Under the pieces are notes generated by a model. The model did no database searches and was not told where the DNA came from. It saw nothing but the letters and a program-made list of their open reading frames with translations. A stretch of 30,097 nt of DNA from Cochliopodium minus (taxonomy: Eukaryota > Discosea > Himatismenida > Cochliopodiidae), in the NCBI GenBank assembly GCA_024220525.1, contig JAMYWO010000408.1, positions 1-30,097 of the forward strand, given 5' to 3'. This document shows, piece after piece, positions 10,332 to 27,541 of this stretch (position 1 is the stretch's first letter; each line of letters begins with the position of its first letter). The position numbers and the translations under genes are program-made.

Positions 10332-11564
10332 TTAATTTTCAACGATTGAAGAAAATATATCTTTGAAAATTTCAAACAAAATGTATTTTGAAATTTTGAA
10401 ATTCCCCAGTTTTTTGGAAAAACTGATTTTGTAGCAGATCAAGAAATAGAAAATTACTTTTTGGATGTAAAGGGAGTAATATTTGTGATCACTTGGATAC
10501 CATGACTTTTTGTTCTCCAAATAAGCGAAAATTTCTTCACATTTTATTTTTTTTGAAACAAGGACTTCCTTAATGGTCTGGTTTTGATAATTTTTAATTT
10601 TTAAGTCAAGTCCATTACAAAAAGAAATCATAAGGATTGTTTTTAGTTGTTCCTTGTTTTGTAAATCATTTACTTTCGATTTTCCGAAGTAAAAATGAAG
10701 AAAAGTTTGATTTTGATTGTTTTTATGATTGATATCTACTTTTTTATCCAACAAATATTTAATTTCTGCAATAACTATATTCCTTCTATTAAATCTGTCA
10801 AAGAGGATTGAATTTCCATTATTGTCAACTAAATTAGGTTCGCATTTTACTTCTTCTATCAAAAATTCAATGACTTTAAAGTTGTTATTGAAAAAACAAG
10901 AAATGCTAAGAAGATTATTCCCAAAATCATTAACTTGATTAAAATCAAAAAATTTTTCAATTTTCTCAAAAAGATATCTCAAAAGATCAATATTTTCTTC
11001 ATCCCTGCAGATTTTATGAAAAAGTGAACTATTTTTAGTTTTGAGATTTACATCACATTTCACTTCTTCAACTAAATATTTTATAATTTTCAAATTCTTA
11101 TTATTATGACAAGCCATTTGGATCAGACTTCTATCAGAAATGTCTAGTAAATTAACATCACATTTAACCTCTTCAATTAAATATTTGATTATTTTAAAGT
11201 TTTCGTTATGCATAATGGCCAAATGAAGAATCGTCTCTAAACTCTTATTTTTAAGATTAATATCACACTTCATTTCTTCTATAAGATATTTCACAATATT
11301 CAAATTTGTATTGTGTGAAATACAGTAGTGAAAGGGAGTATTCCATCCTTTATTTCTTTTATATATTTGAAATCCTTCCTTAATTTTCTGTTTCAATTCT
11401 CTAACTTTTTTTATTGTAACCAAATCAAAATCACCCACATTAAAATCGCCTGTGTTTTAATTCTAGTTAAATACAAAAAATTTTCTTAATTTTTTAATCT
11501 TACTTTCTAGTTGGGAATACTTTTTAATGTATTTTTGTTTAATCTTAGTTATTTCATTTTCCAT
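10332..11564 (-). CDS. Ankyrin-repeat protein with near-identical repeat units
   Basis: Two exons, 11564-11504 and 11449-10332, give 392 residues. The short first exon encodes a polar start (MENEITKIKQKYIKKYSQLE), and the phase-1 junction uses CACAG as acceptor. Residues 50-320 or so are ankyrin-type repeats at a spacing of about 37 residues, with the recurring block KYLIEE(V/M)KCD(V/I)NL in at least three consecutive units and variants (EFLIEEVKCEPNL, KYLLDKKVDINHKN) later. The similarity between units suggests recent internal duplication. The C-terminal 60 residues are hydrophobic and aromatic (IQKVIFYFLICYKISF), possibly a membrane-associated or packed helix. No catalytic domain is seen. 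The gene is divergent from the glycosyltransferase with just 62 bp between start codons. Confidence 0.87.
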
Positions 11565-13663: not shown

Positions 13664-16600
13664 TTAATTTTTTTCGTATTGAGAAAGTTTTTTCTTGAGT
13701 TCTTCTATTTCTTTATCTTTATCTTGTATTTGTTTTTCTTTTTCATTGATTTGGAGATTTTTAGAATTGATTTCTATGAGATGCTGCTTCCCTTTTTGTT
13801 CAATGATCTCTATCAATTCTTTTTTGTCATATTTTACATAACTTTCTTTTTGTTGGAACTTGGATCCAATCAGATCATAAAATGATTTTTTTGGGGTTGT
13901 TCTCTCGTATATTTTGTTTTTAAACAAATTGACATTTTCGATCTTCTTTTCTATTGTTTCACTCAAAATTTTATTGTTGTTGATTCTTTCTTCAACATCA
14001 TTCTTTTCAGTTTTAGTAAAAGAAGAAAAAAAGAAAGATCCGCTCCGAACTTTGTTGAAAGGGACATTATTATCGTTAGAGTTTATAATTTGGATGCATT
14101 CATCAATTCCTATCCTTCTATCAATTTCTTTATTCTTCATTTTTTGGATCATATCTTTTATTCTGACAGACAAACCCAAACTATTGTAGTTGGCTTCAAC
14201 AGAATCCAAAACGGAGAAAAAAGTGACACCCAAAGAATAAACGTCGCTCAAAAAACATTCTCTGTCAGTGTTTTGTTCAGGAGGACTAAAATCTTCAGTT
14301 CTACATCGAACTCTCTCTGTATTACTCCCCATCAAATAAGAACTTCCATAATCAACAACCATATAACTTAATTTCTCCCCTTCGATTTCTTTAAACATTA
14401 TGTTGGCAGGTTTAATGTCTCTGTGAAGTATGTTCTTTTCATGCAACGCTTTGATTTGTAAAAGAATGGAAAGCATCATCTCACAAAAGTGTTTTTCGTT
14501 TTCAAACTTGCTCTTCTCCAATTTTTGAGGCAAAAACAGCCCCAAATGATCTCCATCCACCCATTCCAACACAACATATTTTTTCGGGATTTTTTTCGGA
14601 GTGTCGTCCAATACTTCGACTAATTTAGAGTGAATCATAGTTTCTGTGCTGTTTCTGTTTTTGAAAAGGGAGGAGATCGTTTGAAGAGATTCAACTTCCT
14701 TGTCCCACGCCTCTACAAATTCGATTTTGTCACTTTTTCTTTCTTTTATTGCGTGGATTTCTCCGCTTTCGATGTTTATCGTCTTGAAAATTCTTCCGAA
14801 TCCTCCTTGCCCTGCCACTTTCAAAATAGCATATCTTTTCTCGATCAAAAAATCATTCGACAAACAAAAAGAGCATTCTTTAATCACGTTTGGCACAAAA
14901 TAGAAATGTCTTTCACAATTCAAACAATGAATCTTTATTTTATCATCCATTTGGTCACCCATGCTCTCATTCAAATCAAGTTTCTTCTCTTTTCCGATAG
15001 ATTTCTTCTCAACACAAAATTTGATTTGATCGTGGATTCCGTCAATAACTTTGTTAGATATGAATTCCTTGACGCTCTTGTCTATTTTTGAGAAGAGTTT
15101 CTTTGGTTTATGAGGTGAAGAAGTGGATATTTTTATTTTCACCACCACTTTGTTTTCATTTTCTTTAATAAACTCTTCTTCCAATTCTATTATCTCCATC
15201 TGCACAATCGTCAAATCTTTTTCCGACTGCCCAAAATCGAAAATGAAGCCGTCTTTCCAATAAAACTCATCTTTTACTATCTGCATGTTCTCATTCTCAA
15301 TACAACATTTTCTTATCTTCAAGAAAAGTATTTTCCTTAATAAAAAAGTGAAATTAAAATATTAAACAAATTTTTTTAAAAATAAATACTCGTTTAAATA
15401 TTGATATTAAAATTTTAGGAAATATCAAAAGAAACAAATAACAAAGTTTAAAAATTACATTTAAATATAAATTAAATTTTTAAAAATAATTTTTAAAGAA
15501 ATTATTAAAATTAAAGGTTTAAAATAACATATAAACTTTAAAATAAAAATAAAAATTTTCTTTACCACATCGAAGAAGGCTTGAAAGGGAGGAAATATTT
15601 GATTCTCCAATCATGATTCACCTTTATCTCCTTTATTTTGTTCTTAGAATCATTGAGTAAAATATCCACAGGCTTCGTGTTCGGGAAAAGAAAGGGAACC
15701 AAATAAAACTGCTGATATTCTTTGTTGATCTCGATTTTCTTCATTGGTAAGATGAGATCAAACTTTATCATCAGATCTATCAAAAAGGATCTTTTCTCTT
15801 TGGTGTCTTTTCCGAAAATGTTGTCTCCAAGTATCTCGAATACAATCTCACTAACATTTCTTTCATTTAAAATGTAAATATTGTCAACCTTTTATTGAAA
15901 AAAAAAATAAATTCAAAAAAAAATTCAAAAAGTAAAAATAAATTAAAAATGATTAAATTAAAAAATTTTCTTGAAATAAAATAATTTTTTTTTTAAATAA
16001 AAAATTCTTTTAAAAAAAAAATTAAATAATCAAAAAAAAAATAATTTGATAAATTAAAAAATAAAATAAAATAAAATTAAAAAAAATATTTTAAAAAATA
16101 TGAATCTTAAAATATATAAAAAATTCTTTTAAAAAAAATAAAATAATCAAAAAGAATAAAAGTAATTTTTTTTTTTACCAAGGATCTATTTTTCCCAAAT
16201 TTTAATTTCTCATTCTCCAAGTAAGATTTCAATCCTTTTTCTTCAAACTTCTCTTCCAAGTCCTTCAACTTGCCCATCAAAGTGTGGAAACTGATTTTGT
16301 CGACAATGGAAGTTTTCCTCATCTCCTTCCAAATCACATTGACGGGAATTTTTAAATCAAACCCCTTCTTGATTTCCTTCAAATGATTTTCAACGATAGA
16401 TTTCATTTCCTCTCTTCTTTGGTTGCCCCTTTCGATTCTCTCTTCGACCAATGCGTCATAAATGCTTTGAAATATCATCTCGATCTTTTTCCTCCCGAAA
16501 TCAACGATGGATTTGAAAACTACGTTGAACCATCTCGGATCAGTGATGATGGTATCTCTCAAGTTTTCGTTTTTGAAGAATACGATGACTCCGAGCTTGT

Positions 16601-18426
16601 TCAAATCAACGAGATAATCTTCTATGTTGGCGATCGCTTCGTAGGTCTCTTCAACGTTGTTTTCTTTCATCAAAAACTGTTTCAAAGACTCCACCTTCAA
16701 AAAAGGTTCGACATTTCTGTTGAAGTAAATTTTTTCGCTGCTATCTTTCTTTTCATTCAAAAAACTGTTGTTTCCGATCATCTCAAGTTTGTTCTCACTT
16801 TCTTCTTGACTTTTGTTTGCTAATTCACAAATTTGATCGTAGATTATTTTGTGGTTCAATTTTGTAGAGACAGTTCCGTTGTTGTCGTAATCCTTTTTGA
16901 GGATGTCGATGATCGTTTTTAGTCCAGATTTATCGATTTCTCTTTCTCTGTTGTTCAGGCAGTAGAATAAAGTGTATTTGTTCACTAAAAATCCTTTGAA
17001 TTTATGAAATTTCAAATTAATTTTGTTCTCTTCTATCAATCTTAACAATTCTAAAAAAATTTTTAAAATTAAACAAAGAGAATAAATTAGAAATTAAAAA
17101 AAACTCAACAAAAAATTTTTTACCAACATTAATCTGATTCAACCTAAAGTTGACACTGTTTTGATCGAGAAATCCAAGCATATTGGTGTATTGTTTGCAC
17201 AAAATATCAAATTTAGTTCCTATCAACATAAAAGATGCATTCTTCCCAACTTGAGATTGCAAAAAATGAAACCAGTAGTCCAACTTGTTCTTGGTGATTA
17301 TTTCGTGTAAATCCAAAGAACAATCAAACATAATCAAATAGATGCTTCCTTCACTGAAGAAAAAAGAATGAGCAATGTGGTACTCTTCATGTCCTGCGAA
17401 ATCCCAAATGGAGAACAATGTTTCATCACATTTCCATGAAAAAATATCTAAAAAATTATTTAAAAAATTATTTAAAATAAAAAAATAAAAAATAAAAAAA
17501 ATAAAAAAATGTTTTAAAATTAAAAACAGAGTTACCAACACCATGAGTCATCTCTTCTTCTTTTTTTTCGTTCAAAACTTTTCTGTGTGATTCATTGTTA
17601 GAGACAGGATTATTGGAGCCAATAAGCCTCGTTTTAAAAGAAGTTTTCCCGACGTTTTCATTTCCAATGATCATTATTCTTATTCCTTCAAAAGTTCTTT
17701 TCCTTTTGCTCTTTTTTTCACGACCATTTGGTTCATACTCGACAAAATACTCTTTTCCCTTCTCATATAAAATACCCTTGTCTCTCTTTCCATTCTTTAT
17801 AACCCCTTCAAAAAAATCTTCTCCATTTTTTTCTTTACAGCGGAGATTTCCATTGTAGAAAACTCCTTCAATAATGTTCTTCCCTAATCTCCACTTCTTG
17901 TGTGCTTTTAATTTTCTGTTTTGTTCAGAGTTTGCTTCGTAAACGTCATTGATTTTCCAGAAAAAAAATCTGTTCTCATCGCAGATGTATCCCTCTTCGG
18001 GATCTATTCTCCCATCTTTGAACTCCATCCTACAGAAATGATTTTTTTCTTGGTTTTTGTCATCAATTAAAAATATATCAAGTTCTCTGAAATTGGGGAC
18101 TTCTATTTCAAAATAGATTGTATCCCTTTTTCCGTCGTAATTTTCGAAGATTTCAATTATTTTATCATTTCCTGTCACTTCTACATTGTTAAGCTTGAAT
18201 TTTGTGATTTTCGCGTTTCCTGTTTGATATTCGTTTAGATTAAGAATTGACAAGTTTGTCTTCAACAATTCATCGATGTTTTTTATGAAATTGTATTCAA
18301 AACAATAGTAAAAATTCTCGACTTTCAAATTTGTGTCATTCTCTTTATCCCTTTTCTTTATTAAAAAATAAGAAATATAAAAACATATTTTTTATTAAAA
18401 AAAAAACATTTTGTTACAATTTTCAT
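13664..18426 (-). CDS. Roco protein: MORN-like, Roc GTPase, COR, zinc ribbon, Ser/Thr kinase, coiled coil
   Basis: Main exons are 18355-17536, 17447-17124, 17050-16179, 15888-15566 and 15335-13664, 1336 residues in matched phase; a 9-nt first exon (18426-18418, ATG AAA ATT) supplies a start. In order: a novel N-terminus; MORN-like motifs (GVFYNGN, FFEGVIKNGKRDKG, YEPNGRE) at about 170-220; a Roc GTPase with P-loop GNENVGKT near 234, WDFAGHEEY near 291 and GTKFD near 353; COR (LNKLGVIVFF, DPRWFNVVF, YFLPFKPSSMW, YWKDGFIFDFG) at about 385-850; a four-Cys ribbon CLNC..CSFC near 920-940; a kinase with GQGGFG, HAIKE, HRDIKPANIM, DYG in place of DFG, SPPEQ and DVYSLG; and a C-terminal coiled coil. 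All catalytic residues are present. The family signals through GTP-regulated kinase activity. No leucine-rich repeats are visible. The true 5' end may instead be in the RCC1 exons upstream. Confidence 0.87.
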
Positions 18427-18458
18427 TTCGAATGATATTTTCTAAATTAAATAAAAGT

Positions 18459-19950
18459 TTATCCAAAAAAATTATTTGGTTGAAAAAATTTTACAGCTTT
18501 CGAAAGAGTCATATTTTGAATTAACTTTACACCGTTTAATTCAAGTTTAGTTGGAGAATTTACGAGTTTTTCATCTCCCAAGCCAAGTCTACCTTGATTT
18601 CCTCTTCCACAAACAAATGTTTCCTTCATCTCTAAAAAAAATTAAAAACTTTAAACTAAATAATAAAAAATTACAACAAACCATTAACAAATATAGAATG
18701 ATCAGATCCAGTTGAAATAAAAATGATGTTAGATAAAGGAACTTTTGTAAATTCAGTCCTGCTCACAAAATTTCCCAATCCAAGTTGCCCATAACTGTTG
18801 TATCCAGTAGCATAAACACTTCCATCGTCTAAGAAGATGAAAAAAAAAACATATTATTCATTTTTATTAATAAATAAAAATTAAGAAACACCTGTTAAAA
18901 TTAAGGAATGATTTGAGCCACAATGAACGGATGAAATGTTGGGGAATTCTGATGTAACGATTTGATAACAACAATCACGTTTCTCTATGCCTAATTGTCC
19001 CAACAAGCCGTTACCAAAACATTTAAAAGATGTGCATTGTTTCAAATCTCCTTTTGTTAATTCAAACGAAAATAAATTCAAGTATTTATTATTTTTAAAA
19101 AAAAATACTTGTTAAAATAAAAGAATGAAATGCACCACAACAAATGGAAAAGATATTTTGATCTGTCAACAACAGAACAGGATCTCCTAAAGTTTTAAAT
19201 TTTTTTGAGAGCCCGCATTGTCCAAATTCGTTAGACCCCATCACCCAAACTTCTCCGTTTTCTTTTAAAAATAAACAATGTTCACTTCCACAAGATATAG
19301 ATACCACCTTTTCAATATTCATTTCTTCAAAAACTGTGCTAGATTTTTTGAGTTTCTCCCAAACCCCACACCAATACACTTTCCCATCATCTATTAATAA
19401 TGAACTTATTATAAAAATTAAATATAAATAATTTTGTTATACTTGTCAGTATGACAGTAAAACGAGATGCAGCGCAAACCTTCTTCACGTTTGAAGTGAT
19501 GAAAACAAAATCTCCATAATTCTTTACAACTAAACTCAATTCTCCGCTTCCATTGAATCCTTTGTTTCAATTTTAAATAATTTTTTTATTTTAAATTTTT
19601 TCATTTTCAATTTATATTAAATAATACTTTTTCCTTACCACATCCATATAAAGCTCCGCTTCTTTCCAAATAAAAAGAGCATTTTTCACCCAAAACAATT
19701 GATTTGATGCTCGGATTGTTTTTTAATTTCATTGGTTTCAATAATTCTTTTTTAGATATTCCGCATTGAAAATTTGAATTATTTCCAAATGAATAAAGAT
19801 CTCCATTATCTATGAATTTTAAAGTTATAAAGTATTGAATATGTCAAGAAATAATGTCAAAGATGTTTTTTTTTGGGAACAAAATAAAAATAATTTACCA
19901 CACATGAAGATATTGTGCTCCGAAAAACAAGATGATGAGCTTGATTTCAT
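18459..19950 (-). CDS. RCC1-repeat (seven-bladed propeller) protein
   Basis: Seven exons: 19950-19899, 19809-19639, 19559-19443, 19390-19109, 19050-18895, 18828-18682 and 18631-18459, giving 365 residues if it ends at the TAA. Repeats show the RCC1 pattern: DNGDLYSFGNNSNFQCG, SGALYGCGFNGSGELSL, NDGKVYWCG, NGEVWVMGSNEFGQCGL, FKCFGNGLLGQLGI, DDGSVYATGYNSYGQLGLG and TFVCGRGNQGRLGLGD, each followed by a CGSxH-type half-blade (SCGSEHCLFL, HCGSNHSLIL, STGSDHSIFV). Such propellers act as Ran exchange factors, chromatin binders or modules within large signalling proteins. The last half-blade is degenerate; the N-terminal CFSEHNIFMC could close the ring. A donor at 18494 is in phase 0 with the first Roco exon, so these exons might belong to the Roco gene. 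Confidence 0.85.
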
Positions 19951-20365: not shown

Positions 20366-22376
20366 ATGTTCAAAAAATCAACCAAATATTTCAAGATTCA
20401 AAGAATTATAAATCAAAAGGTATTGTTTATATGCATATCCTTGAAATAAAAAAATATAAAAATAATTTTTATATTATTCATATAATATCAAAAAAGGCAT
20501 TTTATGGTTCTACTCCATTGCATACTATGTTTCCTGGTGTTCCAAGATCTGAAAATGTAAATTATAAATGGACTGAACCTACAGTATCCAATGTTGATGG
20601 AATCAGAGTTGTGGCAATAGAATCCAATACACCACAAACATCCATCACATTATCTTTCAACAGTGGATCAAGAGTAGAATCACCAGAAAATACTGGTGCA
20701 GCAGCATTTTTGAAACAATTTGCATATAGAGTAAGGATATAATGGTTTCTTCATAAAAAATAAAATTATATTTACAATGTAATTATATAATCAATCTTTA
20801 TAAAAGAATAACAAAGAAAAATATAATTGTTGATAGAATATGAAATATTATACTCATTTCAATTACTCATAACGTCATTTATTAATTCTCTTTGTTAAAT
20901 TTTATCAATATTTGCTATCATTTTTAGGCTTCCCCAAAATATACAAGTGTTGGAATCACTAGAGCTATCGAATTGAACACAGTATCCTTCAATTCATCTG
21001 TAAGCAAGGAAGATATTTCTTATAATGCTAATCTCGCAAGATATCAATTGGATTCCTTCTTTCCTGTCTTGGGAGAAGTATGCAATCATAAAATCAGAGA
21101 ATTTGAAGTTAGAGAACTCGAATCTGACTTGTTGGAACAATCTTCCACTTTATCAAGCGATCCATTGAATCTTTTAATTGATAGGTAAAAAAATATATAT
21201 TTTTTATAACGATAAGGGAACCATTTTCTTTATCATTATTATAATTATACTTTAATCTTTCATAATTTTATATTTTATCTCAAATATAAATTTCAATCGA
21301 TTATTCTCCTTCCATTTATTCCTTCCAATTACTAACAAATCTCCTATTTATTTTTCCATATAGATTCCACAGAATCGCATATAGAGGAGAAGGATTGGGA
21401 AATGTTGTTTCTCCTTTCTTATCCAGAGCATCTTTGGAACATGACGAATGGGTAGAGGCTTTGAAAGAATTCCAACGCACTTTCTTGGTCAGAGAAAGAG
21501 CTGTCGTTGTTGGTGTTGGATATAGCCAACAAGAGCTCACCACTCTTGTACAATCCTCATTTGAAGGACTTGCAAAAGGATCCAATGAAGCACCAAAAAA
21601 TACAAAGTAAAAAACATTTTTTTGATACAATCATATCTCATAAATGCTTCAAAGTTTATATTTATTCCATATTTTATCAAGATTGTTAAATATCCTTCAT
21701 ATAATAAATTATTCTAAAAATAATCTTACATATCTTTTTCAAAATCAAAAAAAAAAGATATTATGGAGGAGAAAACTTAGGAGACAGAAACGGAAGCACC
21801 CACTTGTTGATCGGATTCGAGGGACTCCCAATCATCTCCCCTCTCTCCCATGCAGCCAACCTCGTCTACACCATCCTCGGAGGAGGAAGAAAGTACACCA
21901 AAGAAGGTCCAGGAACCGGAAAGACCTCCCTCCTCAACAGAAACCTCGTAGAGAAGCTCCCTAACGTCTACTCCGCTTCCGCTTACAGCGCAAACTACAG
22001 AGATTCCGGTCTTTTCGGTATCTATGTCAATGCTGAAGGTCAACTTGCAAATGTCGTCGATTCTGTCTACGAACAAATCAACTCCTTGAACAAAGTTGAC
22101 AACAATCAACTTGAATCTGCTAAGAAACAATTGAAAGTCCAACTCTCTATTTATTACGATTCCATCAACAAACGTGCTGAATTGGCTAAGCGTTTCGTTC
22201 AGGCTGGTTTGGAGCCTGTTTCTCCTCAGAAGTTCATCGCTTCTGTTGATTCTGTCACCCTTGAGGACTTTAGACGTGTTGTCAAATCTGTATTTTCTTC
22301 TCGCCCTGTTCTTGTTGCTGAAGGTAACATTGCAGGTTTGCCTTCCACCGAACAATTGATCAAAAAAATCAATTAA
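20366..22376 (+). CDS. QCR2: Mitochondrial complex III core protein 2 (M16 family, non-catalytic)
   Basis: Five exons: 20366-20419, 20497-20730, 20928-21184, 21364-21606 and 21758-22376, giving 468 residues. It is a structural subunit of the cytochrome bc1 complex in the inner mitochondrial membrane. The N-terminus MFKKSTKYFKIQRIINQK is a presequence. The N-terminal M16 domain has ITLSFNSGSRVESPENTGAA, and where active peptidases have HxxEH this protein has AAAFLKQF, so the zinc site is lost. Later come a glycine-rich loop (GGGRKYTKEGPGTGK) and the core-2-like stretch SASAYSANYRDSGLFGIYV, then LVAEGNIAGLPST. The DSGLFG block and the C-terminal half favour UQCRC2/QCR2 over MPP-alpha, which remains the main alternative. 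The last exon is the most GC-rich coding stretch in the window, fitting high expression. Confidence 0.9.
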
Positions 22377-23990: not shown

Positions 23991-24363
23991 ATCTTTCTTT
24001 TCTTTTTTTCTTTTTTGTAATTTTGAAAAAATTATCTTGATTTTAAACAAAGTTTTGATAAATTTATAAGAAATTTTTTTTTGAAAATGAAATATTAGTT
24101 AAGCCACAATGCTGTTCTTCAAATTTTTCTTTCAAAAAAAAATTTTAATAGTGAATTACTCTTTCATTTATCAATTCATTTTAACTATATTGAAAACAAT
24201 CTTATCTTTCCTAAAAGAAAAATCATCGATTTCACGAAGGTAGCAATGGATAATCAAAGTAATCTATAAAAGAACTACTTGAAAAAAGGGAGAATTAAGA
24301 TTATTTATAAAGTTTTGAGGTGAATTTGTAGAATGAACATTCCAAATTGAAAATAAAAAAAAA
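23991..24363. promoter_or_regulatory. Divergent intergenic region, ankyrin-Rossmann gene / methyltransferase
   Basis: The 373 bp between the two start codons are AT-rich. The first 60 bases extend the minus-strand frame without an ATG and probably form the 5' leader of the ankyrin-Rossmann gene. Nothing else recognisable is seen. Confidence 0.35.
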
Positions 24364-25044
24364 ATGATTTTAAAAAAAAAACTTTATAGATCGAATAATT
24401 TTTTAAAGAAGAATGGGATTTCAATGAACAAAAAATTATTTGGATCAATTCAAAAAGATAAAGAATTATTTGCGGGAACATCGATGCCTGATTCAGATTG
24501 GTGGCATACGTTGTTTCCAAATCCAAAAGAGATAATAGAATCATTAAATATACCTCCACATTCAAATGTAATTGATATTTGTTGTGGAGATGGATATTTT
24601 ACCCAACATCTATCACAAAATAACAATGTAGTATTTGGATTGGATCTTGATGATAATCTTCTTGAAATGGCCAAAAGAAATGCAGAAGCACATCAACTTC
24701 AAAATATTCATTATATAAAAGGAGATGCAATCAAATTTGGAGAATTAATACCAATCAAAGCAGATTTCATTTTAATAGCCAATACTTTCCATGGTATTCC
24801 TGAAAAAACATCATTTTGTGAATTGGTGCATTCAAAGCTGAATAACAAAGCAAAATTTTGTGTGATTAATTGGAATAAAATTGAAAGAGAAAAAACAACA
24901 GTAATAGGAAAACCTAGAGGTCCCAGAGATGAAATGAGAATTTCTCCTGAAGAGTTGAGAAAGATTTGTTCTCCTTTATTTCAACAACAATCTATTATTG
25001 AACTGGCACCCTACCATTATGCTTCTATTTTTCAAAAAATCTAA
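24364..25044 (+). CDS. Intronless class I SAM-dependent methyltransferase
   Basis: A single 226-residue open frame with TAA stop. Motif I is NVIDICCGDGYFTQHL at about 68-83, the acidic residue after strand 2 is in FGLDLDDNLLEMAKRN, motif II lies in NIHYIKGDA, and strand 4 is ADFILIANTFHGI. The C-terminal strand FCVINWNK and the PRGPRDEMRISPEEL segment follow. This is the standard class I (seven-strand) layout in a short form, close to bacterial-style small methyltransferases. The first 26 residues (MILKKKLYRSNNFLKKNGIS) are basic and could be a mitochondrial presequence; the alternative ATG at 24424 would drop them. It is the only complete gene of the window without an intron. Substrate is unknown. 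Confidence 0.85.
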   Translation: MILKKKLYRSNNFLKKNGISMNKKLFGSIQKDKELFAGTSMPDSDWWHTLFPNPKEIIESLNIPPHSNVIDICCGDGYFTQHLSQNNNVVFGLDLDDNLLEMAKRNAEAHQLQNIHYIKGDAIKFGELIPIKADFILIANTFHGIPEKTSFCELVHSKLNNKAKFCVINWNKIEREKTTVIGKPRGPRDEMRISPEELRKICSPLFQQQSIIELAPYHYASIFQKI

Positions 25045-25231: not shown

Positions 25232-27541
25232 TTAATTGTTGTAAATTTCAGTGAAATTATAAGACATAACTGTAATCAAATGATTTCCTTCAATATTTTT
25301 GGCTACGTAAAGAACAATGGTGCATTTCTTTGAAGGGTGCAACAGTTCGAAAGACTTTGTTGATTTCGATTTGCACAAGAGGTGGAGTTCAGATACGTCC
25401 AACGAAGGGATAAGTAGCTCCACTGATCTGTATTTTGTTTTTTGTTCGTCTAAATAGTTGAGAGAGTCTTTGAAAATACCTTTGAATGACTATCATAGAA
25501 ATTTAAATGAATTTTTTTTCAATTTAAAATTTTTAAATTTTTTATTTTTATTTTTATTTTTTATTTATTTTCTTTTTTCATTTTTTATTTTTTATTTTTT
25601 ATTTTTTGTTTTTTATTTTTTATTTTTATTTTTAATTTTATCTTTTTGTTTATTTTTATTTATTTTATTTTTTATTTTATTTTTTAAATTATTTTTTTAT
25701 TCTTACAATGTTTTGGTAGATCAAAATACCAACATAATTAGTAAAAAGAATGGGATGAGGCACGGAATCCAAAGTAGATCTCAACAAAGCATTGGTGGTG
25801 TTGGTAGAAGCGAAGCGGAGGTAAAGGTCCATGTATTTTTGTTTGGAGATCAAACAAAGCACTTTGAGATCTTCATTATCCAAAAATTCTATTTTGTCTC
25901 CCTCCACATCATATGACAACAACTATTTTTCAATAGAAAATAATTTTATTTTTAAATTAAAAATCAAAAATAAAAAATAGAAAATAAATAAAAAATAAAA
26001 ATAAGTTTTTTTTTGTTTTTTGTTTTTTGTTTTTTGTTTTTTGTTTTTTGTTTTTTGTTTTATTTTTTGTTTTATTTTTAGTTTTATTTTTATTTTTATT
26101 TTATTGTTTTATTTTCTTTAATTTTAAAAAAAGTTTTTATATGTTTTTTCATATTATGTTTTTTTTGTCTTCAATTTATTTTCAGGTTTTTTTGATTTTT
26201 TTTTTTTTCAAATTTTTTTTTTTTTTACAGATTCACATCCGATACGATCATAAATAGTGTTTTGAATTTCTTTCTGAGAGGAATTAGCGGAAATTTCGAT
26301 TAAAACGGGGAAATACTTTTTCCTTTTGTATTTGATGAGACACCTAATAAAAAGCTTCTCTTTCTCTTCTTCTGCATTCACTTTTTTTTCTCCTCCAAAA
26401 TTAGTCAAGTCGATATCTAAAAGAATTATATCAAAATAAAAATAAACAAAAAATGTAAAAATAAAAATAATATCAAAAAAAAAAAAATTGAAAAAATTGA
26501 TAGCAAAAAATTAAATTTTAAAAGAAAAATAAAAAAACTAATTAAATCATAATATTTTTTCGATAAAAATAAAATAAATAAATTAAATGATAAATAATTA
26601 AATTTACAAATTAAAACTAAGAATTTTTTTTTTTTACTTTTCGGATCAACATTTAAAACATTAAAACTTTCTTCATCAGTAGAACTCTTTGTTAAAATGA
26701 TGATACAAAAATTTTCTTGGTTGGAAGTGATTGGAATACAAAGAAGTTTGGCGGGAATTTTGTTGACGCTTTGGTGATAAATAAAAGTATTCAATTCAAC
26801 GCATTTTTTATATTGGCGGAAATTTTTGCTTATGTTTTCTAAGGTAAGTTCCTCTGTAATGAGAAGTTTTAATTCTCTTCCTAAAAGGATTTCTTTGGGC
26901 CATGTTAATAGTTGTTTTAGTTTTTCTGATACGAAGATTATTCTTTCAAGATTATCTTTAAATGATTATCGAAAAAAAAACGAATTTGAGTTTAGAATAT
27001 GAAATGATTTTCGAGATTATTAAATATTTAATTTTATTTCACCTAATATTATTTATTATATATTTTTTATTTAAATCAAGCAAAGATATCCTTGAATCCC
27101 AAAAATATATTCAAAATTATGATTCCCTTCTTTTTTTCTTGAATATAAAGTCATCATGATCATTTTATAGAATGTTATTTGGAGTCAATAATTGAAAGTA
27201 AAATTGAAAAAAATATTATTGAGTTCATATTTTTTCATGATTGATGGATATAATGCCAAATTGGGAACATTTTATTGTAATATTCGAAAGGTGATAATAG
27301 TTTCTTTATTTTATACGAAATATAAAAATTAATATATTTTTATTCACTTTTGGATACCTATCAGCATTACTCCATATTGAGATGTCGATTGCAAATAAGG
27401 CAGATTATCAAGGATTTCGTTTCTCATTTGTATCATGGTTTCCAGATTGTAGGGATTGGATGAATTATATAATTTCTGAAAATTGGAATCGAGAATTTCT
27501 CGATTTGAATCCAATACTTTTGAAATTGTCGACAATCCCAT
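25232..27541 (-). CDS. Protein with two PAS domains
   Basis: Five exons: 27541-27358, 26955-26638, 26416-26229, 25922-25707 and 25489-25232, giving 387 residues. PAS 1 (about 50-155) begins QYGVMLIGDNLERIIFVSEK, continues with LKQLLTWPKEILLGREL and closes with strands around FCIIILTKSS. PAS 2 (about 260-385) begins LLRSTLDSVPHPILFTNYVG, has ILIYQNISFKGIFKDSLNYL and ends CTIVLYVAKN, HLITVMSYNFTEIY. These are the usual PAS strand-helix patterns in which the core can hold a ligand or cofactor; no chromophore Cys motif is evident. There is no kinase, DNA-binding or cyclase output domain, so it may act through a partner. The last junction was fixed by requiring phase 0 with acceptor GATAG at 25490. 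Intron 3 (26228-25923) holds a 7-bp microsatellite. Confidence 0.72.
26004..26075 (+). repeat. GTTTTTT microsatellite within a PAS-gene intron
   Basis: About eight successive copies of a 7-bp unit (GTTTTTT on the plus strand) lie in intron 3 of the PAS gene. They grade into TTTTA-type tracts up to about 26110. The stretch just before it, 25938-26003, is A-rich on the same strand, so the transcript could fold back on itself. Confidence 0.85.
26956..27357 (-). other. Intron 1 of the PAS gene (402 bp)
   Basis: This intron links phase-1 exons that together read MLIG-DNLERIIF, an unbroken PAS start. Its sequence is mixed rather than homopolymeric. A 65-residue open frame on the plus strand (26962-27159) has a hydrophobic middle but no family match and sits wholly inside the intron, so I do not call it a gene. 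Confidence 0.5.

Follow-up and report, generated by a model that had tools for sequence, protein, structure and literature searches.

A gene of Cochliopodium minus predicted to join an RCC1 propeller to a Roco GTPase and kinase through a 24-nt microexon

Does an RCC1-like propeller encoded directly upstream of a Roco gene belong to a protein of its own, or does it form the N-terminal part of the Roco protein? The question is raised by contig JAMYWO010000408.1 of Cochliopodium minus (assembly GCA_024220525.1), analysed here as a window of 30,097 nucleotides. On the minus strand of the window, exons for the propeller are followed by exons for a Roc GTPase, a COR region and a protein kinase. The original prediction proposed a single RCC1-Roco-kinase protein of about 1690 residues, produced by direct splicing of a donor at 18494 to an acceptor at 18356. 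We rebuilt the spliced model on the minus strand of this contig, which is C403 in the contig numbering used below; all C numbers refer to contigs of the same genome (44,654,751 bases in 598 contigs). The model extends from 19950 to 13664 and comprises 13 exons, including a microexon, with 5100 nt encoding 1699 residues. The domains are arranged in the order RCC1 propeller, linker, MORN-like hairpins, Roc-COR, zinc-ribbon-like motif and kinase (Table 1). Judged from sequence, the region is very probably one gene, the product of which would be a single protein of approximately 1699 residues containing all of these parts. The proposal of one protein of 1690–1700 residues is thus borne out by the model, the paralogues and the Pfam matches, whereas a path through the microexon is more likely than the direct splice.

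The junction between the two parts of the gene contains the signals for several readings. If the last RCC1 exon is left unspliced, it continues for 11 codons beyond the donor to a TAA at 18461–18459, where a protein translated with intron 7 retained would stop. The ATG at 18426 lies 32 bp after this TAA on the same strand, and a GT follows 9 nt into its reading, so that the stop, the start and the 9-nt first exon needed for a separate Roco gene are all present, as the original prediction described. The GTAAAA donor at 18494 is in phase 0 and joins the acceptor ending at 18356 in frame and without an internal stop. The resulting 5076 nt, including the stop codon, agree with the predicted 5073 nt, which leave it out. 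A second in-frame path passes through a 24-nt exon at 18441–18418, which is preceded by TTTAG and followed by GTAACA, and gives the 5100 nt of our model. This microexon contains the ATG at 18426 as an internal codon. Between the end of the last RCC1 exon at 18495 and the start of the next exon at 18355 there are 139 nt, in which the microexon path is the only one when introns of at least 40 nt and a phase-0 exon of 9–60 nt lacking a stop are required. Any such path occurred in 70 of 2000 dinucleotide shuffles of the window gap, and in 161 (C127), 217 (C153), 40 (C91), 289 (C32) and 121 (C75) of 2000 shuffles of the corresponding paralogous gaps; the six loci are related, and these rates are not to be multiplied. 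The gaps of C153 and C75 each contain a second, nested path.

The same arrangement recurs in all six of these loci: a last RCC1 blade, an intron, a phase-0 microexon of 24–30 nt, another intron and the next exon. The introns are of the GT-AG type and measure 52–81 nt ahead of the microexon and 46–64 nt after it, and 131–169 nt separate the last RCC1 exon from the next exon. The microexon of the window encodes KISFEMKI, and similar peptides are encoded in C127 (EISQIEMKI), C153 (IILQIEIKI), C91 (EISELEIII) and C32 (EISQIEIKI); that of C75 has diverged (EIKIKFSLEM). The next exon starts with (K/R/I)RE(N/K)E in four of the five paralogues, comparable to KRDKE in the window, and differently in C75. 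Calculated over the ten pairs from five loci, with C75 left out, the microexons have a mean pairwise identity of 0.73, the introns on either side 0.48 and 0.56, and shuffled microexons 0.42. All six loci have a GT-AG-flanked microexon at this point of the gene, and five of the encoded peptides are alike; the last RCC1 exon is therefore most likely joined to the rest of the gene through the 24-nt microexon and not directly from 18494 to 18356.

A search of the genome with the Roc-COR sequence as a query found 101 matching pieces on 43 contigs; the contigs were counted by hand, and scores are given for the best candidates only. In C243:10114-11193, a single stop-free frame of 360 codons holds RCC1 repeats and a Roc sequence from the P-loop to DFAG. 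Its RCC1 part matches PF00415 with 79.4 bits (cut-off 21.7) and contains three blades recognised by a hidden Markov model (HMM) built from the window blades (E 2.7e-13, 4.3e-10 and 5.2e-4). The presence of RCC1 and Roc in one frame means that the fusion at this locus does not depend on splicing. In C30:119701-118760, a single frame includes the last blade, followed by the MORN-like part and the P-loop; its later part is 47.5% identical to the window protein (blastp, E 1.8e-46), and its blade is matched by the window HMM with an E of 1e-7. Two further frames combine blades with the MORN-like part: C243:20639-19743 has three blades (E 5.8e-16, 2.4e-10 and 0.029), and C461:12465-13052 has one weak blade (E 0.011). 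Among 24 loci whose upstream DNA was retrieved, 12 carry RCC1 blades in front of Roc on the same strand, the window being one of them (C127, C153, C186, C22, C302, C30, C32, C461, C75, C77 and C91 at 64–68 kb are the others). This is a biased sample, chosen by match strength and nearby RCC1; C32 entered it through an RCC1-linker search instead of the Roc-COR search, and the two C243 loci, selected for nearby RCC1 matches, are not among the 24. The fusion is argued for by the stop-free paralogous frames containing RCC1 and Roc, the microexon in six loci and its conservation, the upstream blades in half of the sample, and the lack of an in-frame ATG in three of the six microexons.

The propeller is identified by strong matches of the spliced protein to PF25390 (RCC1-like domain, 278.1 bits, cut-off 150) and PF00415 (124.7 bits, cut-off 21.7), with four stretches passing the latter cut-off singly. 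All seven RCC1 repeats expected of an RCC1-like domain were found by sequence. Each was located singly by the HMM, which was built from these blades and is therefore not independent evidence for the window. Strong Pfam and Protein Data Bank (PDB) matches link the propeller to the RCC1-like domain proteins, such as UVR8, RPGR, HERC1 and RCC1; the window protein differs from the 30 PDB sequences matched, among which no Roc-COR protein is named. The propeller N-terminus resembles those encoded in C9, C115 and C41, and less so that in C77. The linker, which begins at residue 364, has no Pfam match; the AlphaFold2 model of its exon has a mean pLDDT of 64.4, with values of about 89 over exon residues 181–210. 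The MORN-like pattern is a visual description. No Pfam MORN match was found in window frames at E <= 1, in the spliced protein and paralogous frames at E <= 0.01, or in other searches at E <= 0.05 and E <= 0.1, and the hairpins are not assigned to the MORN repeat family. Alsin (ALS2) likewise carries MORN repeats together with an RCC1-like domain, and Alsin_RLD was matched weakly by one paralogous frame (22.4 bits against a cut-off of 100). Alsin differs in carrying the exchange-factor domains DH-PH and VPS9 where the window protein has Roc-COR and the kinase. NEK8 and NEK9 combine a kinase with an RCC1 propeller, but their kinase is N-terminal and they contain no GTPase.

The Roc domain of the spliced protein matches PF08477 with 65.4 bits (cut-off 27), and a COR region follows it directly, as in Roco proteins. 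The GTP-binding motifs G1, G3 and G4 are all present as the P-loop GNENVGKTSF, the switch II sequence IWDFAGHEEY, and TKFD. TKxD is found in all 20 aligned loci, and G1 and G3 are intact in most of the 20 and 18 loci aligned there; G1 is broken or changed at C22, and G3 at C461 and C100. One switch II position holds a histidine in 15 of the 18 loci aligned, an asparagine in C75 and a glutamine in C387 and C19; the C243 frame has lysine there. We take this position to correspond to R1398 of LRRK2, and the change of that arginine to histidine is reportedly protective, as the title of a reference puts it. Among the paralogues, C4 has a COR-A match of 38.7 bits, which is above the cut-off; C75 has COR-A with 28.4 bits and COR-B with 26.7 bits (cut-off 27), and C186 has COR-A with 25.2 bits. 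The COR exon of C127 has no COR match at E <= 0.05. The nearest PDB sequences for Roc-COR are 4wnr, 3dpu and LRRK2, with the prokaryotic Roco proteins 4wnr and 3dpu the best matches and 4wnr aligned across Roc and a COR stretch. The protein in 3dpu is Chlorobium tepidum Roco and that in 4wnr Methanosarcina barkeri Roco2. Both names also appear in PMC6337361, according to which prokaryotic Roco proteins have leucine-rich repeats (LRRs) in front and no kinase. The window protein differs from them in both respects.

The kinase matches PF00069 with 90.2 bits (cut-off 31.7) at residues 1312–1526 and lies C-terminal of COR, as in Roco group 2, which is described in PMC6337361 as the LRR-Roc-COR-kinase type. 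The protein shares with this group (LRRK2, LRRK1 and Dictyostelium Roco kinases) Roc, COR, the GTP-binding motifs, the C-terminal kinase and an N-terminal interaction region. It departs from the group in that this region consists of an RCC1 propeller and MORN-like hairpins; no LRR family was matched by the spliced protein at E <= 0.01. Further differences are the prevailing histidine in switch II and the zinc-ribbon-like motif before the kinase, both cysteine pairs of which are present in all 15 loci aligned there. GTP-binding and kinase motifs are intact in the window, and some paralogues depart from them, among them C50 and C19 at the HRD motif. The C-terminal tail has a weak match to PF16808 (E 0.014, below the cut-off).

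Several observations weigh against the reading as one Roco-type fusion. The COR-A match of the window (PF16095, 31.7 bits, E 1.6e-7) is below the cut-off of 35.3. The kinase does not appear, by sequence, to be nearest to the LRRK kinases: a calcium-dependent kinase is the single PDB entry that it matches at E <= 1e-12, and a ten-row profile, in which the window contributed its COR exon only, gave calcium-dependent and other kinases (TNIK, CDK12, NEK2 and DAPK2/3 among others), with none named LRRK among the 60 matches listed. The paralogous frames have weak points of their own: the Roc match in C243:10114-11193 reaches 25.7 bits, slightly below the cut-off of 27, the C30 frame is below both cut-offs (RCC1 15.8 against 21.7 bits, Roc 17.4 against 27 bits), and nothing in Pfam matches the C461 frame at E <= 0.01. 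No RCC1 blade was found within the upstream DNA examined in the other 12 of the 24 loci (C91 at 46 kb, C4, C193, C108, C387, C217, C19, C50, C234, C100, C83 and C76), and the close RCC1 relatives C9, C41 and C115 have no Roco match in about 3, 1.5 and 0.9 kb of downstream DNA, respectively. Several loci contain N, including C32, C91 (three places) and C127 (1886 N upstream); C32 and both C91 loci are each interrupted by a single N. At the junction itself, the microexons of the window and C153 are 0.52 identical, no better than their introns (0.45 and 0.61). Of the six microexons, those of the window, C127 and C75 contain an in-frame ATG, which in C75 is the last codon. Skipping of the microexon would also keep the frame, and retention of intron 7 would yield an RCC1-only protein.

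Two other accounts of the junction have to be weighed against the microexon-joined gene. In one, the gene is fused but spliced directly from 18494 to 18356 without the 24-nt exon. Such a transcript would be in frame over its 5076 nt, and the exon could be skipped without a frame shift. The recurrence of the GT-AG-flanked microexon at the matching place in all six loci, with five similar peptides, makes it very unlikely. In the other, two adjacent genes encode an RCC1 protein ending at the TAA and a Roco protein starting from ATG 18426. Both codons exist, in-frame ATGs recur in the microexons of C127 and C75, similar RCC1 genes lack a Roco match in the downstream DNA examined, and there are Roco loci without upstream RCC1. 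However, two genes would be separated by 32 bp and the second would have to start with a 9-nt exon, an ATG is lacking from the microexons of C153, C91 and C32, the order and close spacing recur in six loci, and RCC1 and Roc share one stop-free frame in paralogues. We consider two genes extremely unlikely, and the ATG is most likely an internal codon of the microexon and not the Roco start. The frames in C243 and C30 carry the argument for the fusion.

A further alternative accepts the fused gene but assigns to the propeller the role of an exchange factor acting on the Roc domain of the same protein, a role also suggested by the original prediction. RCC1 is the exchange factor of Ran, and here the propeller is in cis to a GTPase. 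The best PDB matches of the propeller are UVR8 (2.1e-38) and RPGR (1.1e-35), ahead of RCC1 itself (1.6e-23); its sequence is nearer to the former two than to the Ran exchange factor. Many RCC1-like propellers are not known to act as exchange factors. Low, micromolar nucleotide affinity has been reported for full-length prokaryotic Roco proteins in PMC6337361, where the need of Roco proteins for exchange factors is presented as debated, with exchange factors for LRRK2 reported and their direct action without proof. An exchange-factor activity of the propeller is unsupported by the sequence comparisons, and we find this alternative quite unlikely.

Based on the domain arrangement of the predicted fused protein, a division of labour can be proposed. 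The Roc-COR unit may act as a GTP-driven, probably dimeric, switch, with the C-terminal kinase as the output. The RCC1 propeller and the MORN-like hairpins would stand in for the LRR input region; rather than exchanging nucleotide, they may bind a partner or a membrane and gate the switch. We regard this mechanism as moderately probable. We speculate, as an unlikely extension, that the locus belongs to a lineage-expanded Roco subfamily in which the propeller exerts direct control, in cis, over the nucleotide cycle of the Roc domain, and in which an intron flanking the microexon could switch between RCC1-only and full-length products. If this were true, a propeller-GTPase pair otherwise known in trans, as RCC1 and Ran, would be one molecule with a kinase output.

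Table 1 Features of the predicted RCC1-Roco-kinase gene in the window
Feature	Position	Strand	Evidence
RCC1-like propeller, seven blades, exons 1–7, residues 1–355	18495..19950	-	Spliced model, PF25390, PF00415
Exons 1–7	19950-19899, 19809-19639, 19559-19443, 19390-19109, 19050-18892, 18828-18682, 18631-18495	-	
Intron 7, 53 nt, GTAAAA..TTTAG, phase 0	18442..18494	-	Intron at matching place in five paralogues
Microexon, 24 nt, KISFEMKI	18418..18441	-	27–30-nt microexon at matching place in C127, C153, C91, C32, C75
Intron 8, 62 nt, GTAACA..ATAAAG, phase 0	18356..18417	-	
Linker region from residue 364, then MORN-like beta hairpins, residues ~531–580	17705..18355	-	10-locus alignment; MORN by eye
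Roc GTPase, residues 589–717, split by intron 17535-17448	17206..17680	-	PF08477, PDB matches, motifs
COR region, ends approximate; introns 17123-17051, 16178-15889 and 15565-15336 inside	15250..17123	-	COR-A match ~16718-16500
Zinc-ribbon-like CxxC...CxxC ahead of the kinase, by eye	14864..14926	-	Cysteine pairs across loci
Protein kinase, residues 1312–1526 or slightly further, HRD and DYG present	14186..14830	-	PF00069, motifs
C-terminal tail with coiled-coil-like end, stop codon 13666-13664	13664..14185	-	Spliced model

The first six introns of the propeller are all in phase 1, and five of the six are at an approximately equivalent position of the blade (following ..HS..LT or the corresponding residues), which looks as though the blades had been duplicated along with their introns. 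Blades 3 and 4 of the window propeller share one exon. At C91, one half (46299-49163) has COR and kinase but no Roc match, and the other (64385-68446) has RCC1 and Roc but no COR match; they lie about 20 kb apart in the order opposite to that expected, each adjoining a single N (46179, 65527 and 68260); the arrangement is possibly a scaffold join error. On the plus strand of contig C338 (34369-37968), an open frame of 1200 codons encodes numerous ankyrin repeats (PF12796, 162.7 bits) ahead of the MORN-like part and a Roc P-loop; the contig ends soon after it. Elsewhere in the window, the minus strand has a 374-codon frame of ankyrin repeats at 10332-11456 (PF13637, 97.5 bits), and the plus strand a peptidase M16 C-terminal domain at 21708-22376 (51.4 bits), resembling a mitochondrial processing peptidase or bc1 core subunit. 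A frame for a class I methyltransferase (24337-25044, plus strand, 52.1 bits) and a PAS-like one (26426-26965, minus strand, 26.9 bits, cut-off 27) lie farther along. Counted exon by exon, the genome has at least 147 matches to PF25390 and at least 155 to PF08477 (Roc/Ras-like), and both families look expanded.

In a FastTree analysis of the Roc-COR-kinase part of 20 loci, the RCC1-bearing loci were scattered over several branches, several supports being low, down to 0.18; loci shorter than 250 residues, among them C32, C91 at 64–68 kb, C76 and C83, were excluded. The scattering fits an early fusion followed by losses or exchanges. No description of an RCC1-Roco protein was found among the papers listed from the PubMed Central (PMC) literature, including the available parts of PMC6337361, PMC8923023 and PMC11550330; most subscription journals lie outside this collection, and the result does not prove absence. 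Public eukaryotic sequence collections may already contain proteins of this kind, and in automatic annotation such genes may be divided or cut short at a microexon of 24–30 nt. C. minus seems to have a family of large signalling proteins with an RCC1 propeller placed directly before a Roc-COR-kinase unit of the type found in the Parkinson's protein LRRK2. This suggests that an RCC1 propeller can replace the LRR region of LRRK2-type proteins; at C338, ankyrin repeats stand before the P-loop in one frame. It lets one ask which part of Roco regulation is intrinsic to Roc-COR.

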